Position numbers and translations under genes: made by a program
The notes under the pieces: generated by a model
The model's input: the letters and a program-made list of their open reading frames with translations, nothing else
Databases searched by the model: none
What the model was told of the DNA's origin: nothing
NCBI RefSeq assembly: GCF_947623445.1
Contig: NC_135244.1
Location: forward strand, 8,680,001 to 8,744,000
Source of the DNA: Clavelina lepadiformis
Lineage: Eukaryota; Chordata; Ascidiacea; Aplousobranchia; Clavelinidae
Direction of reading: 5' to 3'
DNA length: 64,000 nucleotides
In this document: piece after piece, positions 15,441 to 26,200 of the stretch
Numbering within the stretch: the stretch's first letter is position 1
Layout: the number at the start of each line of letters is the position of its first letter

Positions 15441-17602
15441 AAGTCAAACTGTGCAAATTACTGTGTCATTGCCCACCAAAGTGTGCACTTCCGTTGAGCT
15501 CTGAGCATTTCTGCACATCGTATTTGATATTTTTGGTTGTTTGGCGCACTCAAGATTTTGCTGAATATAACCATACTCTGCAGTCCGGCATGGACAGTCA
15601 AAAACATGCACAAACAAGAATTGCGAAGGAATTATTTTTCAAGAAATTATGCAAAAATATTTCACAGAACAGATGCTTTTTAAATGCAGTCACATTTTGC
15701 ACATATAAACTTAGTAAAACAACCTGCGACTGCAACAAGTGTTTAGTTTGCCAGTCCACTGACAATGAAAGTATGACCTAAAACCAAACACTGACTGCAT
15801 TCTTTGTATGTTTGAAAAATTTGAATAAAACAAACTGGGCCGACTGTTTTATGCGTATGATATACAGTATCATCAAAACAGAACAGAAATGTGTATTTTT
15901 TACTTTTTCATTCCCACATGAAGTCCTGAATGGGAAGAAGTTATGACTGATCTCCTCAATCCAGGATGGAAGGTTTGTTCTAATATATAAGTACAAAACC
16001 AAAAGATACGTTTGTATACTAGACCGAATAGTTTGCCCACCCCGTGTACAATTGTGTGATTTTATTTTATTTTGTGTGAAATTTTTTTCGGAAAAAATTC
16101 TGCACACAAAATCAAAACTTTTCAATCTGGTCCAGAATATATCTTATCCTATAATGAAAGCGCAGAAGCATATAAAAGACCTTAAAAATGTGGGTCTCGT
16201 ATACAAGTGCACAACCACAGGATGCCTTCATATACTAAACCCCTGCTACTCAAATTGTGACGTTATCTGGTTGTGCTCTTGCATACCCGACCCAAAACTA
16301 CAACATGAAAATTTCAAGCCAAAGCATGTAGTAGCCTATAGCTATTTCAAAATTATTGGGTAGGCCATATCCTAAGATACAGACTACCAGTACATAGTTA
16401 TAGGCTCTGATGTAAACATAAGTATTCCAATGTCTAACAGGTAACAAATCTTAACTTTCGTATCGAGAAAACTTCTTCCTAAATAAAACAAAATCACATC
16501 TTAGTGCACAAACCGGTACAAACGTAACAAGCTGTATTACAACACTGTCTGACTGTGAACAGATTTTGTTCAAAGTTCAAAAAAAAAGACATAAAAGTAG
16601 ACTGAAGGAACGCAAAATCCACCCATTATGCAACTAATCAACTTATAATTTATTGCTTGTCCAAATCCCTTAGCATAGATTCTTCAATTTATGATTACAC
16701 TGCGTCAAAGTTTATAAACAAACAGTAACTTCCAGATCTGTCATTTCTTATCCAATTATTTAAAGATGGCAGCTCGAGCCAACGCTAGAAATACCGTGTG
16801 ACGTCATAAAACAAATAATAAGAAATTAGAAGGCGCTGGCAGGGGCATCAGCTGATTCGAGACTAAAAGAGCTAATCACTTGAGTTTTCTTTCAATAGTC
16901 GTTAGTTTGTTGTGGTTGAGATCGTTGTGGAGCGCTCTGGTTTTAAAAAAGAATGTATTGCGGCAAGTTGGAACGAAATGTGTAGTTGTCAAATTTATTG
17001 AAATGCATCGCTTACCTATTCAGCGATGTTGTGCAATTATCCACCGTTTTGAGACCTACTGTATGATTGGGTTGTCACTGCAGTTAAAAAGGTGTGTTGT
17101 ATTGGAAACAATCGCACGCCTTCCACATGGTAAATGACAGGCTTGCAGTCTTTGTTGTTGTGTGGTCTAGTGGTTTTAATGGTGGCTGAGTAGTAGATGC
17201 GGTTTTATGAGCAAAACAAATCAATAGCGTAGTTGCAGTAAAATGTTAGGCTTGCAATTTCGGAATCTTATTGTAATTTAAATTTTATGAAAGCCATTGT
17301 CGATGATTTAATCATTGTTCAAAAAGGAAGTCGTTTTTACCTCAAAAGTTATTATGAATTTGTTGACTGCAGTGCGGAAAAAACATTAACTTGTTTTTTG
17401 CTTTCGTGATGAAAGTGTGTAACTTAGAAACCGTTTGATACTCGTGAACGGTTGTTGTGCTTGGTCAACATTCCCACGTGCTCGGTTTTCGGCCTCCAAC
17501 ATTATTGTCATATAAACACCGATGTATTGCTGACAATTGGCTATGCCTAGACATCACTACATGATATTTCAGAATTTTATGCAGAAGCACGCATAAGAAC
17601 TG

Positions 17603-17608
17603 TTTATT
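17603..17608 (-). other. Polyadenylation signal candidate for SEPHS
   Basis: AATAAA on the minus strand about 260 bases after the proposed SEPHS stop and about 95 bases after the SECIS candidate. The SECIS would therefore lie inside the 3' UTR if this signal is used. Confidence 0.5.
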
Positions 17609-17700
17609 CTAAATTTCTAGAAACAACACTAACGCATCACAAGCAAAATAGTAAATGAAATTTCCAACAACAGCGTAAAATGCTCCATCCTTTTCATCGG

Positions 17701-17747
17701 TCAAAACGTTTGCAAGAATTTTATCCCTGTTTTCAAACGGACGTCAT
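17701..17747 (-). promoter_or_regulatory. Candidate SECIS element in the SEPHS 3' UTR
   Basis: On the minus strand it starts ATGA at 17747 and ends TGA at 17701, as expected for the SECIS core quartet. CGTTTG pairs perfectly with CAAACG to form the upper helix. The strand then opens into AAAA, followed by a mini-stem CAGGGA/TTCTTG (with G-U pairs) closed by a small loop, which is the form II arrangement. The weak point is the lower part of helix 2: CGTC opposite TTT pairs poorly. It sits about 115 bases after the proposed stop at 17864, before an AATAAA, in a gene with an in-frame UGA. Confidence 0.6.
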
Positions 17748-17863
17748 GGTGGTGAAACAAACGTTACGGGGTGCCTGGAAAACACACGATTGTCTAAACC
17801 AAACAAGCTGCTCATTGTAGGCTCGGACATCATGCGCTGATCAACTATTTCCTTTAAGGCGGG

Positions 17864-20800
17864 TTAGTGATGGTTTTGATACTGCGCTTGCTGCTGCATG
17901 TGTTGATATTGCTGGGGATCTTCCACGATTACCTACACAACATACACAGCATTCGAGTCACCAACGCCATATGACATAATGCCTAGACGATTAAAAGACA
18001 AGGATTCACTACACGTATTTATGAATGACAAATATTAGATCACACGATACTGACCTGTTGAACTTGCTGAGAAGTTTGCAGAGTGACGGGCGTGATGTTG
18101 CATATCGTCTGCTGGTGCATAGATGCTGGCGTCTGTTCTATTTGTTGAATGATGGTCGGCAATTGCTGACTCACGACGGGCAGATCTGGTTGTTCTTGAA
18201 CGGCCTGTTACATTAAAAACTGCATCGTAGTAGAGCTGGGCGTAATTGAGTAATATGACATAAGTTTCACCAAGGTATTGGGAGCTATAAAAGTCGCTTC
18301 CGTGAGACCCCACCGCGTTACTCGCTGATGTTTTTAAGTAGATGCAACAATGTTGGCATTTTAAAGACGTTTTTTCATATAACAACCTTGAGCCAGTATT
18401 AAGCTGACAGAATCCATCGTACATTTTGTTCCGTGCATCAGCTGAACGTACCATTGGATTTGTTTAAGTTAGTAACGGTATCTCGAGGGAAGTGATTGTG
18501 GGTCCGTAGTAGCTTACTTTTACAAGATATAAAATCATATACTTAATAAAAATCTATGCTTTACGCTAATTTCTGAGGAACGGCAAAATTACTTAGAACT
18601 ATTTAATTACAATAAAAATAATTAAATCCTGCTTTATTGTGAGATAGTAATTAAGTTCAACCTTAGTAAAGGTATAGCTATCGTTAAATAGGCGATGCAT
18701 GACAAAGCAACGTGTTTAAACGTTGTTGTTGATAGTACTTGTTCCTTGATAAACAGTGCGCTATGAACTGTGTTCATAATGTGGCTGACATTGCTCGCGT
18801 ACTACCTGGAAAACCTTCGCGTACCTATAGCAGACCAGACAAAAGTATAGTACCATTGCACTAGTGGGGGAAAAATAGTGTGTTTATAGCTCTTTTTCGC
18901 AGTTTCTTGTTAACCTAACTTAAATATGATAACGTAGTAAACTAAGCTTAACCTAAATCTAACTTTCATTAAATGTAGTAGTGCGTGCAACACGTGATCC
19001 ACATAGATTTCTCATAGCGCAAATAGTCAGTAAGAGCATATGGTCAGGAACTCAGGCGTATGCTACGTAATGCACAGACCTCACGTAGACGTTATGCACG
19101 GTAATATTTACAAGTTCCCGACAAACAGCGCTATTTTGATTGAACGTAGTTACGAAGTTTTTAGAGACTTGTCCTTACTACTAACGTAGTAAGGACCGCT
19201 GGTGCGTAGCTGTAATTTGCAGTTATGTAATATTTTGAATTACGCCTAGCTCATACCATTGCCCAAAGCAAAACATAATTTATCGCTAAACTTTGACGTG
19301 AATTGACATCCGTTTTTTACACCAATATTAGCACAAAATGAAAACATTGACTTACCTGTGGTATTTGCTGCAAAACAACTTTTTGAGGTTCTTGGACCAC
19401 TGCTTTAGGATGATTCTAGATGGAAAATATCACTATTTAGTTTAAGCAGCATTGCAAATTTATACTTGCTAAATCTTTGCCTTCTTACTGGTCTGCGTGA
19501 AGTTGTTGTTGGCGGCACGCTTTGCACAGTCCCATCATCTAATGTTTCTACTTCAATTACACGTGGTTTGTCTATGATTTTCGCAGTTTGGTTACCTACA
19601 AACAAACGTATGATAACTAGCTGGAAAGAAGTGTACAAATAAATGTAATGCTTTATGCCTGAACAAAAGTACTGGAAAGATTCCAAGACAACGTTGTATT
19701 ACAAATATCTAGCGATCACAGCACCTCCTTCAACTATTCCAATTATCCATGCTTGATGGCCCTCAACTTTCTTTATTTCAGCACAATACTTTGCTGCTTG
19801 TTCACGTGGTAGGCAAATCAAAAGACCTCCTTATAACAAAGCAAAAATACAACATGAATTTATAACAAGAAAAAAAAATTGTTAAACGTCACCCAAAATC
19901 AATTTATAAGTATGGTAATATATACCTGATGTTTCTGCAGAAGTTCCTTGCAGTAATCCAAAGGTATTACCACAGCATTTAGCAATTGCAGCCATTTTAG
20001 CTATACATGGCAGGTTATGTATTATAAAATTAACTGCATTTTTCTGTTGCTTCACTAAATTCTGAGCGTGTCCAAGTATGCCGAATCCCGTTACATCTGT
20101 TGCACCATGGCTGTTGTGCGTGTGCATAAGCTGTGCAGCTGTAATTTTTTATTTATTTCTTCAAAGAAACTATTTTAGTAACAATCTTAATAATTTTAGC
20201 ATTGTAATAACTTCTTTTTACCGGTTTTATTTAGCCTGGCCATTATAAACATAGAGTCCTGGTAAGCCTTTTCAACTTCCTCTTCAGTGACAATCAGTTT
20301 GATTCTATTCCACTTATCACTTTTTTGTTCAAGCCATTGGTGAGCATTACAGCTGACTTGTGTTCCAAGTGGTTTTGTAAGAACAAGCACATCACCTGGC
20401 ACTGCATTGTTAGGCCTGTTAAGGTACAGTGTTAAACAGTGAGTGTGATGGGGTATTCATGCCATCACTGATTATTTAGTTAACTTGTTGCTAACATATC
20501 TTGTTGCTCCAATACTAATCGGGTTATGCAAAAAAACAATCTTGCGAAAACATGCAGATGTGAGATATAGCAGCCCACATTATCTGGCAGCTTAGCATCA
20601 GTGATCTGATGCATTGCACATTTGCAATACTTAAAAACTTTGCAGTAGCCACACACATTATGAATTCATTTAGTTGGCAAACAGCTGTGGCTACACCTCC
20701 AATTAAGCACCAAGGGTTTAGAACCGTTTGTCCGCCATTGACTGTTGTACCAGCTTCCTCTGCACAATCCTAAGTATCAAAACAAAATTTTACATTGCTT

Positions 20801-23253
20801 TACAATTTTCCTTTAATTCTTATTTTTGATCTTCTTCCACGCTATTAAACCAATATACCACAGTTTCATTACTATGTAATGTTAACCTTATAGGCCTATC
20901 TATCATAATGTAATATGCCCGGGGTGAGGAAAGTGCAGCCTTAAATTCATTTCCTTGTTCACTAATATTCTAATATTTAGGACCAATTAATCCTAAAATT
21001 AATAATGCTTAAATGAAACATCGTTTCATAAGGTAATGATAAACGGCCTTACTGTTGTCATTATGCTATCAATAAACAAGCTTAGAAATATTAGGTTAGC
21101 ATGACTACTTTTAAGTTTCGGCTTAACTGATTTCTAGCGAACTGAAATGCGACCATTGACTGGAAAAAGTTTCCCTCCCCACCCCTGCAATAGGCCAATG
21201 CTACCTTAAAACCACGCATCATTAGAGGTACAACAACATCACGAGCTTTTTCAGAGAATTTGGAACTGATGCCCAATAACATCAACATGTTGTCACATTC
21301 AGTTACTCCCATTGCATATAGATCACTAAGAACATTACAACATGCAATTTTTCCCTAAAAATTCAAAAATAAAAAATGATATCAAATGAAGGCTTAATCA
21401 TGAACTCAAAAAAGAATATTGTACCACAATTTTTACCATCATGTATGGATCATCAACAAGTGGATAAAAAAAATCTGTTGTCTGAATAAGAGAAAGTCCG
21501 CCAAATCGAAGTGGGATAACACAGCTGTCCAAGCCAATGCCTAAAAGCATGAAGTCAATAATGGTACATGACATAGATTAAGCAGCGAGTGAAATACCAT
21601 TACATACATAATTACTAAGTCTAAGCATTAGTGAAGGAAAAGCATGAATATATCTGCTTTCCATTAATATCCTAAGAGGATTCTAGGCCTAACAAGTAGG
21701 CTTAGAATTTGTCAACAACAGCAACTCTTGGAGACAAAAAATTGCTCAGATAAACCATTACTCAGATAAATGACCACGAAACATTCCAAAACCATCTTTT
21801 GATTCAACTAAAAGGTGATAGTGAACACTAAATGGCACTATCCACTAGTACAATAGTGAACATTCTATCCAGTCATTCTATCAAGTTTGCCAGTGTACTG
21901 AAAGCTGACAAATCTCAAATAAAAACACAGTACAAAACGAAAAATGTTTGTGGTGTAACAATCTACAGTAAAATGCAGTACTGCTTGTTACGTAATACAG
22001 AACTTTGTCTTTTACAAGAAAACAAAACTTAATGCCATTACAAAGAAATAAACACTACCCAGGGAACAAAGATGCCGTTATACGCAAAGCATCATTATAG
22101 ACAATGCTGTTATAGGCAAGATTTATACATGTAACAGATATGAATTTTGCCGAGACCAGGGAAAATGCAAGGCGAATTGACATAACAAACGAAGTCGTTA
22201 CAGACACTCTCTTGTACATATGAGAATGGTGACAGATATTATAAACATAGGAATGAAAGACCATGCTTCACTCCTACAGTAATTCTGGCATATTTTTCTT
22301 TACGTCCATAAACTAACCTGTCCCAAGGCTAATGTTTTCACTAGCAGAGTACGTTTGCAGCATAAATTATCTCAATATAAAACCGTTTAAATGACATTCG
22401 TTGCACCGCAAAACACTTGATCAAATCTTAAACCAAATTGGAAATTTTTCAATTAACTTCTTACCCATCTTGGGTATTATCATTCCTCCTAAAAATTGGT
22501 CATCCTGAAATTGATCTATTCCACCTAGTTCTTCAAGAAGTCTATTCAAAACATCACTAGGCACTTTGCAGGCACCTCCATGAAGGGCTACATTAGGTGG
22601 ACACAAAATATTACAATGAGATCGTATTACAGAGAAAAGAACCATTCTATGAATCAAGCAATTCCCCATCTTACCAGTATATTTGGTAAGGCGAAACTTA
22701 GCATCAAGTTCATGAGCTTCAGGGTTAAATTTAGTTCTCAAAGTCATGGTTTGTGCATACAAAGAAATCTGTGTGATAGTTTAAAACATTTCTTGTTGAG
22801 AAGATATTTTTATAATGCAAGAACGCAGGTGTCACAGAGGGAGCAATTAATCAACTCAAATTTCCCAACAAACATGGTCTCTCAAATATCTACATATAAA
22901 ACCTCTTGACCTGGCTACTGAATCTGAGGTAGCCCACAAAAGTTTTAGCCCAGTTCTAATTTTTTCGTATAACACAAAAGGACAGCAAGTCGAGCACATT
23001 CTGCGTGCGCTTCACAAATTCAGCAGTATAGCCTGTTAACAGGTTTAGAAGTTTGCTTACCAATTGAAGGCATTAAGTCTGCATTTTGATGATCATTCTC
23101 CTTTTCAGAATTAAGTCCCTCCAGAAGCTTGAGCAGCACCTTCTGGGGGACTTTGCACCCTCACCCCTTTAAACCCGTATAATCAGTGAGTCGAAAACTG
23201 TCATCCAGCTCATATAGAGCTGGATCAAATACACGATAATTTGCCTTTTCCAT
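17864..23253 (-). CDS. SEPHS: Selenophosphate synthetase with alternative Sec and Gly 5' exons
   Basis: Makes selenophosphate from selenide and ATP, the selenium donor for Sec-tRNA. Sec isoform exons: 23061-23253, 21437-21540, 21205-21354, 20657-20769, 20222-20415, 19926-20138, 19725-19829, 19489-19595, 19356-19415, 18055-18204 and 17864-17932, giving 486 codons with stop. Phases agree throughout. The first exon has TGA at codon 31 within LKG-U-GCKVP, the SPS2 active-site motif. The common exons encode [48 protein letters not shown] and [18 protein letters not shown]. The alternative start (22675-22747 plus 22465-22587) replaces Sec with Gly. The core is about 393 codons, like human SEPHS1; three further in-phase exons add about 92 Gln-rich residues, which is unusual. 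Reading through the donor after exon 19489-19595 would instead stop at 19405. Confidence 0.93.
18840..19030 (-). repeat. Degenerate family A repeat in a SEPHS intron
   Basis: The reverse complement starts near CTGACTATTTGCGCTATG and includes GTTAGATTTAGGTTAAG, similar to the family A copies at 11108 and 14693 but diverged and without clear ends. Confidence 0.35.
19171..19196. repeat. Perfect 11-bp hairpin in a SEPHS intron
   Basis: GTCCTTACTAC, a TAAC loop, then GTAGTAAGGAC. The stem is 11 bp with no mismatch. It lies in the 1.15-kb intron between exons 19356-19415 and 18055-18204. No function is evident. Confidence 0.6.
22465..22747 (-). CDS. SEPHS: Alternative 5' exon pair of SEPHS encoding the Gly isoform
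   Basis: Two coding exons, 22675-22747 and 22465-22587, separated by an 87-bp GT-AG intron. They encode [18 protein letters not shown], then RLTKYT, and across the junction [19 protein letters not shown]. Aligned with the Sec exon, the codon at the Sec position is GGT (Gly, 22574-22576), and the Cys two residues later is kept. The pair ends in phase 1, exactly like the Sec exon at 23061, so both can splice to 21437-21540. An isoform of 486 residues results. It lies inside the intron downstream of the Sec exon, so a separate promoter or an alternative acceptor is needed. Proteins with a non-Sec, non-Cys residue here (SPS1 type) are thought not to make selenophosphate. Confidence 0.88.
23161..23163 (-). 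other. In-frame UGA selenocysteine codon of SEPHS
   Basis: TGA at codon 31 of the first exon. Before it the frame reads YTGLKG and after it [16 protein letters not shown], matching the SPS2 motif on both sides. Readthrough is required because no splice site removes it. The same frame stays open to the donor at 23061. Confidence 0.9.
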
Positions 23254-26200
23254 TTACTATTACCAGTATTTTTCCTATATTATTCCTATAATTAACAGGT
23301 AAACAGGATTGTTAGCAGTTAGCCCAGTATTAAACAGAATAGATAAGAAACCAGTTGTGGGAGATCATTTATTATTAAAACATATAAAACTGCACAAATT
23401 GACTAGTAAAATCTTACTCATTGTGTAGCCTATGCTGTCGGATCTTGTAAATCTAAACCATTGTATAGGATAAATGATATTTCCAAAATTGGATATAGAA
23501 GGAAATCCCTTTAACACCAATTTGTGTTGAATGGTAAGAGTTTTGAATTAATGAACTCTAGCCTAACAAGACCCCACTGTATTATTATATGCACCAATGC
23601 TCTGTTGGTAACCAGGTTGGAAAATTTGCTAAGTAAGTGAGGATTTAAATTAATTGCGCATATAACGGTAATGGATATTGACTTATCGTATTGCGCAAGG
23701 GATTTCTCACCCAAAAACAGCAAAATTTCCAATCTGCGTTGGTACCGGTACCAAATAGTTAAACATTGCAATGAAGATTTGGACTGTCACCAATCACTTA
23801 CAGGATGCCATGGCCAGATTGGAAAGTGCATCAGTTTTCAACAAGAAAGCTTTATATATCTATTTTGAATTAGCATGAAGATAATGAAGTTTGGCATACA
23901 CCTTAATAGATCTCATGTCTGCAAGTGCCACACTTTCCAAAGTATTGCTATGAATCTATAGAATAGGCTATTTGCACATGTTTGTTTTGTTATATAGGGT
24001 TCACGTCTAACGAGGGGTTTATTCCTTATTATCTAAAACTAACACCAATCTTCTTCCATGTGAAGTGCATACTTAACTCAACTTGGTGTAAAAAAAAAAA
24101 TTCTACAAAAAGCACTCGTTCGCCCATTCCTTGAGTATGCTGCGTAACTTTACTTTGGGAGCATACTTTTTACTCTGCTATATGTTCCGCAAAGTTAGAA
24201 CAGCGAAAAAATAAACGATACAAAATTCGACCGTAAACGGTATTCTAGCCTAGAGCATGCTGGGTTTATCGATATATATTAGGTTTCCACAATTAGAGTG
24301 TGGTTCCACACTGTTTTTTCAGATTGGATCATATTCCGGTAGGCTTATTCAAAATACGACTTCTTATATTTGAACTGACGAACTCGTACACAGTTGTAGG
24401 TGAACTGTTTTATTATCTTGCGTCATTGCAATTGTAGCAATGCTAAATATAACCCTGTCTAAAGTCCACTTTTGCAAAATAGTGCAGTCTTGGCGATCAA
24501 TTTAAAGGAGGTTGGCCAATAGGGTGTAAAAGTAATACTTCCTCTGTGACACCATTTAAATGATATTAAGTCTGTAAGTACTACGTAGGCATAGGAACAG
24601 CACTTACAAATAACAACAAAATACTTCAACAAAAAACGACATTAAATGTTTCTAACATTTTATAAAAAATACTTACAGCAACATCAGTTTGTAACAACCT
24701 TCTTTAATATTTTATCTGAAGTAATCCGCACGAGGAATAGCCTACCCATGATGCAACATGCTTGATCAGACCATCCAATGGAGAACAAGAAACGTTTTAC
24801 GCTTTAACGGTCCATTGACTAGGAAAGTTCACTAGCCCAATTAAGGGAGGAACTATTTCTTTTTGAAATCAGAATTTTTATGATCATTTCTCGAACAGAT
24901 CAGCCGATTGTCTGGTATGACCAATTTCAGTCCAAAAACTAATGACTATGTCATTTTTCAAAAGCCGTATGTACTTTAAAATTGGTGGAAACTTATAGAA
25001 GAAGTTATAGTAAATGATCATCGCTGTGTAAAAATTATACTGCAGTCAATTGCAAGAAATGGGTACGGCGCATCCTATCCTAGGGTACGGCGCATGCTCG
25101 CCAGGAATACTTTTCGTTTAGAACAGTGGTCGACAAACTTTTATTACGATGGCCCAAATTTTCACTTCATTAGTAAATGAAGGCCCAATATTACTTGCCA
25201 AATATACATAATGCAGTAAATATTACTCACTAATAATTTCAATGTACTTTTTTGTTTTTCGCAGTAGACAATATTTTTTGAAGCTTTTGGATAAGTTCAG
25301 TTAAACTTTAATCTAGTTACGTGCTTTCCACAGGTTTTAGCGATAACGGTGACCTGCAATTAACAGACAGTTAGCAAATGAAAATACACTCCCATCACTA
25401 ATGTTGAGTTGTATTGCGGCCTAGAATCTAAAACGTGCATTTGTTTGTGCGAGCGTAGGTAGAAGTTCCGCTAGCTGACTATAGCAGTCAGTTCTCACTG
25501 CCCTAAATTTAACATGTTGATTATGAAATATGAAGTTTAGATTCAGCTTTCACACCTTGTTGGAAATTATAGAGTGTCTAGAATTATAGAGTTTAGAGTG
25601 TCTAGAATGGCGTAGAATGCATAAATTTTTGCTTTTCTTTGAAAAAAAGAAAAGAAAATTATACTTGTATCTGTTTATTGTAACTTATAAATTTTTAACA
25701 CTCAATTCATAACTATCTTGGATATTTACTGCCGACCGTCTTTATATATTTTCAAGATCAGGAACGAGTTACTGGATAGAGAATTCACCACCAGCGTCAC
25801 TCGACTCACTAACTTTGGAAAAAAGGAGTTTTCTTTCAACACTATCATCTATTGGACGGCATTGACATCTTTCTTCGTACATCACTGCCGATGTAGGCTA
25901 CCAGAGAAAATTTCATCTTGCAATGAGCAGCAACATTATCACATCTTTCGAGTACCATCATTGATGTGCACTTTTGCTGTACAAACTCGAGCTCGTTAAA
26001 AACGACCTACTAGACTCCTGTCCGGAATAGAGTTTGTTTTAACGTGTGTATTCTCTAGCCATCCACTGATGTACATCATTAAAGCAATTTTTGACCATCT
26101 GTTGCTTGACCACACCATCTGCTCGTCTGATTAACTTCTATTTTTTCAAACTTATGGCGGAGTTTTGGTGACACTTGGCAAATTTTGGACAATTGTGTGT

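Follow-up and report, generated by a model that had tools for sequence, protein, structure and literature searches.

The 64,000-nucleotide stretch of the Clavelina lepadiformis genome analysed here, referred to as the window, harbours on its minus strand a selenophosphate synthetase (SPS) gene, for which we could confirm two alternative 5′ coding sets predicted to place either selenocysteine (Sec) or glycine at the active site. The Sec first coding exon (23253-23061; 193 nt, phase-1 end, donor GTAAGCAA) is translated as MEKANYRVF...GLKG-U-GCKVP...MPSI and carries an in-frame TGA at 23161..23163, which is codon 31 of the Sec isoform (GLKG-TGA-GCKVP). Apart from this UGA the frame is open, the donor is intact, and an in-frame TAA (first base 23256) is positioned immediately 5′ of the ATG. 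The Gly set is composed of exon 1 (22747-22675; 73 nt, donor GTAAGATG), which could be aligned with the proteins of Phallusia, Styela and Ciona savignyi, and exon 2 (22587-22465; 123 nt, acceptor TAG, donor GTAAGAAG), which ends with ...IPKM and contains the GGT codon at 22576-22574 for residue 29 of the Gly isoform (LHG-G-ACKVP). Frame and splice sites are intact in both exons, and a stop lies in frame upstream at 22783. Exon 21540-21437, preceded by TTTTAG, continues the Sec or the Gly set in frame. A previous sequence-only reading had described a TGA at the Sec position of LKG-U-GCKVP, a downstream exon pair with GGT at the equivalent site, and phase-1 ends of both sets that fit 21437-21540; all three descriptions hold and all checked coordinates agree.

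Both sets lead into ten shared exons on the minus strand (21540-21437, 21354-21205, 20769-20657, 20415-20222, 20138-19926, 19829-19725, 19595-19489, 19415-19356, 18204-18055 and 17932-17864 in a GT-AG gene model), and the end of the gene was traced beyond the region of the earlier reading to the stop codon TAA at 17864, followed by a likely poly(A) signal AATAAA at 17603..17608. The resulting proteins comprise 485 residues including Sec and 486 residues for the Gly form. Full-length homology and the active-site motif identify them as members of the SPS/SelD family: the protein matches carry PF00586 and PF02769, the Phallusia match spans 96% of the query, and the Gly isoform matches solved chains named 'Selenide, water dikinase 1' over residues 1-388 with 618 bits, structure 3fd5 presumably being the human protein. 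The Sec isoform, in addition, belongs to the selenoproteins, as the UGA is in frame at the Sec position of the family and is flanked by coding similarity on both sides. A Gln-rich C-terminal extension of ~90 residues, encoded within 19415-17864 on the minus strand, is found in Clavelina, Phallusia, Styela and Ciona savignyi and is missing in the fish sequence of the same alignment. A possible alternative last exon was noticed at 18824-18774 (minus strand), where a TATAG acceptor after exon 19415-19356 is followed by in-frame coding sequence, with an AATAAA at 18638-18633 on the same strand, 136 nt beyond it; transcripts using this exon would be devoid of the SECIS candidate described below. 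The Gly proteins of Phallusia and Styela have the long tail in its place.

The reading frame is no proof of junction use because two further splices are likewise in frame, namely a direct connection of Gly exon 1 to 21540, by which the active-site segment would be lost, and a connection of the Sec exon to Gly exon 2, by which this segment would be present twice. Further information is provided by the deposited Clavelina lepadiformis protein P0001 (425 aa), the best protein match with 99% identity to the query, whose sequence is exactly that of residues 61-485 in the Sec isoform. Its start is an ATG within the Sec exon, 3′ of the UGA, and the exon end is joined to 21540; the entry is therefore devoid of the first 60 residues including the UGA, and also of the Gly exons. 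Since P0001 is identical to the translated joins, the ten shared exons are confirmed and the Sec-exon junction is contained in it. According to the Clavelina genome note, an annotation with RNA-Seq data was to follow, with ERR10908613 named as the RNA-Seq set (PMC10884593).

The composition of P0001 could be taken to mean that the gene is a plain SPS2 whose Gly exon pair is either not used or a duplicate undergoing decay. We consider this extremely improbable on account of the intact frame and splice sites of both exons and of their conservation among relatives. Ten relatives were fetched out of 120 listed of 7724; six of them start downstream of the active site, and the four that reach it (P0002 from Phallusia, P0003 from Styela, P0081 from Ciona savignyi, and P0005) all carry LHGG[AG]CKVP. 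Over the first ~70 residues, of which seven are encoded by the shared exon, identity of the Clavelina Gly exons amounts to 49/72 residues with the Phallusia Gly protein, 47/70 with that of C. savignyi and 44/71 with that of Styela, compared with only 32/68 with the Sec exon of their own gene. For P0005, which also has Gly at the site, the similarity to the Gly exons (38/71) barely exceeds that to the Sec exon (34/69), and a fish SPS1 resembles the two to about the same degree (37/71 and 35/69, respectively). The SPS of Ascaris and P0121 are nearer to the Sec exon (36/64 and 34/66) than to the Gly exons (28/63 and 26/62), one identity in each of these Sec-exon counts being due to C substituted at the UGA. 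Protein searches with the first 70 residues alone returned one relative for the Gly and three for the Sec form, few because the search needs exact shared words.

The sequence following the UGA displays the properties of a Sec redefinition element. The candidate element (23113..23160, minus strand) consists of the hexanucleotide GGGTGC directly after the UGA (23160-23155) and a hairpin at 23153-23113 with a folding energy of -24.5 kcal/mol. Compared with dinucleotide shuffles the hairpin reaches only z -1.98 (8/200 as low). Synonymous resampling, in which the protein is kept and the codons are drawn from the gene itself, was deemed the better test and gave for the UGA plus 16 codons an energy of -23.8 versus a mean of -9.2 (sd 3.1), corresponding to z -4.7 with 0/2000 as low; with three further window sizes 1, 2 and 0 of 2000 resamplings were as low. 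The identical test at the Gly site revealed no signal (z +0.8 to +1.1), and in 67 other coding windows located beyond the first exon, each resampled 200 times, the minimum of z was -2.4 and that of the energy -14.0. A structured redefinition element after the UGA is thus indicated by thermodynamics in one species. Judged from these features of the DNA, both alternative starts look functional.

Sec insertion would further require a SECIS element, for which the segment 17758-17682 (minus strand) in the 3′ UTR is the likely candidate of this gene. It is built up by ATGA, a helix, AAAA with a short apical stem, the return helix and TGAC, and is the sole match of a pattern-and-fold scan in the 274-nt 3′ UTR, which is short up to the AATAAA at 17608. 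In 1000 dinucleotide shuffles of the UTR some match occurred in 166 and an equally good one in 5. With a whole-motif scanner the candidate ranks fifth of 52 places on both strands of the window, one of the four higher-scoring places overlapping the UGA hairpin, and when the places are ordered more crudely, by the energy of helix II, it ranks tenth of 14 in the window. The Rfam model SECIS_1 did not report 17758-17682 in three local searches, even at E 10 over 106 bases, and the candidate is not among the three genome-wide matches of this model, which score 32.4, 28.0 and 25.5 bits and are all below the cut-off of 35. SECIS_1 performs weakly on the Clavelina genome, and the SPS candidate is weaker than its three matches. 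Such sub-cut-off scores alone prove little because they also occur in 4/14 prokaryote control genomes. The whole-motif scanner, in turn, evidently misses real elements, since of the three Rfam-matched loci it recovered only the element at L016, the 32.4-bit match, where no gene was identified. The Rfam matches in 17000-25000 and 17300-17900 were dismissed as noise, as all are sub-gathering hits to unrelated families; the entire window contains no match at or above the gathering score of any Rfam family.

The genome outside the locus encodes components needed for Sec incorporation. One tRNA-Sec match exceeds the Rfam cut-off (75.3 bits; C6:239410-239495, anticodon TCA), the other 37 of 38 matches being below it. 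Two selenoprotein-like genes with an in-frame UGA were located at L017 and L018 (C1:23015708 and C4:20871332). One of the two is a glutathione peroxidase gene with the motif VNVASA-TGA-G, whose GSHPx pieces lie slightly under the Pfam cut-off, and the other a pyridine-nucleotide-disulphide oxidoreductase gene ending in QNGC-TGA-G-TAA, which we take to be thioredoxin reductase on the basis of this C-terminus. SECIS_1 matches of 28.0 and 25.5 bits are found downstream of the two genes on the same strand. These data bear on the alternative that the UGA of the SPS gene is decoded by an ordinary tRNA without insertion of Sec, the mechanism proposed for hymenopteran SPS1-UGA. The hymenopteran genes are likewise marked by GGGTGC and a stable structure at the site of the UGA (Mariotti et al. 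2015, PMC4561486), and the SECIS of the Clavelina SPS gene is only a candidate. On the other hand, the Clavelina genome contains a tRNA-Sec as well as further genes in which a UGA occupies a known Sec site. Moreover, animals making selenoproteins generally need an SPS with Sec or Cys, and no other SPS was found when the genome was searched with the shared protein part; we therefore attach a negligible probability to ordinary-tRNA reading.

The copy number of SPS was assessed by searching the genome (209.06 Mb in 95 contigs) with the shared protein part, which yielded six matches, all corresponding to exons of one SPS gene. The single AIRS-domain match elsewhere in the genome (C2:16643057) was rejected as a second SPS and assigned to GART because GARS_A, GARS_C and AIRS_C pieces flank it. 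A second SPS locus was thus not found in the genome by the shared-protein and AIRS-domain searches. The claim that one locus supplies the 5′ ends of an SPS2-type and an SPS1-type protein is accordingly supported at the level of the sequence. Conversely, the Sec exon might be a relic in a gene that makes only the Gly form, Sec synthesis being maintained by another SPS gene. This arrangement is the published state of Botryllus and Halocynthia (PMC4561486) and would agree with the failure of Rfam to report the Clavelina SECIS candidate, but it is highly improbable in view of the missing other locus in the genome searches, the frame open apart from the UGA, the intact donor, the strong hairpin and the deposited P0001, which uses the end of the Sec exon and not the Gly exons.

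We are therefore confident in assigning the sole SPS gene found in Clavelina to the SPS-ae type of Mariotti et al., i.e. one SPS locus with Sec and Gly 5′ sets fitting common downstream exons, in which an upstream start would lead to an SPS2-type Sec enzyme and a start within the intron to an SPS1-type Gly protein. We infer that both transcripts are made from separate promoters and that the UGA is read as Sec. In the proposed scenario, transcripts from the upstream start would carry the UGA, which the ribosome would read as selenocysteine by means of the hairpin after the UGA and the SECIS in the 3′ UTR; the Sec form would then act as the SPS2-type enzyme that makes selenophosphate. A second start within the first intron of the Sec transcript would give rise to the Gly transcripts and thereby to an SPS1-type protein with a different role. 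Alternative first exons are usually accompanied by alternative promoters. A possible separate promoter of the Gly transcript is TATAAAAATA at 22805..22814 (minus strand) within that intron, containing the only TATAAA on the minus strand in 22500-23600, 67 nt upstream of the Gly ATG; as the window has 107 copies of TATAAA on both strands taken together, the assignment is suggestive only. A division of function between the Sec and Gly forms would be expected by analogy with work on Ciona SPS-Gly in flies. In that study the Ciona Gly isoform is reported to rescue the fly SPS1 mutant significantly but partially, and a role of SPS1 proteins in producing selenophosphate is argued against (PMC4561486).

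As the sequence-only reading had stated, this layout has been discussed for ascidians: the arrangement of Ciona has been published, and Molgula tectiformis is reported to possess both isoforms (Mariotti et al. 2015, PMC4561486). Its use as an indication of an ascidian origin was justified too, the organism being Clavelina lepadiformis, and the notion of an intermediate between one gene and two turned out to be the published interpretation, with Clavelina fitting the single-gene side (PMC4561486). Ciona and Clavelina share a single SPS gene, Gly at the site and a common downstream part; however, they belong to different ascidian orders, and the SECIS is reported in Ciona but only a candidate in Clavelina (PMC4561486). 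The comparison concerns the overall layout. Botryllus and Halocynthia likewise possess a Gly isoform, and P0003 of the related Styela has the LHGG motif, but these species contain separate SPS1-Gly and intronless SPS2-Sec loci, whereas in Clavelina no second locus was found (PMC4561486). Vertebrates also combine SPS1-type and SPS2-type proteins in one animal; yet theirs are encoded by two genes originating from a duplication, and Thr replaces Gly (PMC4561486), as seen in our alignment for the fish protein P0018 (LKGTGCKVP). The main text of Mariotti et al. 2015 makes no mention of Clavelina, Aplousobranchia, Phallusia or thaliaceans (PMC4561486), and no other description of an ascidian or tunicate SPS-ae was among the listed matches in the open-access literature.

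The Gly exons can be followed across ascidian orders. Phallusia and Ciona are members of the Phlebobranchia, Styela and Molgula of the Stolidobranchia. The simplest reading of the residue identities, over a stretch too short for a tree, would be that the Gly exons arose once, prior to the split of Aplousobranchia, Phlebobranchia and Stolidobranchia. A separate question is which 5′ end came first. The Sec set is unsplit. In the Gly set, codon 25 is interrupted by an intron, four residues ahead of Gly29, and the ancestral intron layout is retained by the Gly-type genes published for Botryllus and Halocynthia (PMC4561486). On this basis the Sec first exon might be the derived one: the original 5′ end would have come to encode the SPS1 form, and a first exon acquired by fusion, possibly originating from a cDNA and equipped with a promoter of its own, would have restored the Sec form prior to the divergence of the ascidian orders. 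We regard such a course of events as rather unlikely. In a tree of 21 hand-picked rows, P0006-P0009 and P0063 grouped with the ascidian rows (100/99 for the group of ten); the inner order was mostly unresolved and P0063 formed a long branch. In four of these five proteins the first residue lies a short way upstream of the shared-exon junction, as is also the case for P0001; the start of P0009 is within the shared exon. The five might represent Sec forms truncated at the UGA and might, as a guess, come from pelagic tunicates.

What is new in Clavelina is the member of the Aplousobranchia, the map of the elements of the gene, and a deposited protein whose start lies 3′ of the UGA, so that the current entry comprises neither the UGA nor the Gly form. 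The Aplousobranchia are hereby added to a rare solution in which one gene with alternative starts substitutes for the two SPS genes of other animals, and the Clavelina case lends support to the view that the Gly exons predate the divergence of the ascidian lineages sampled.
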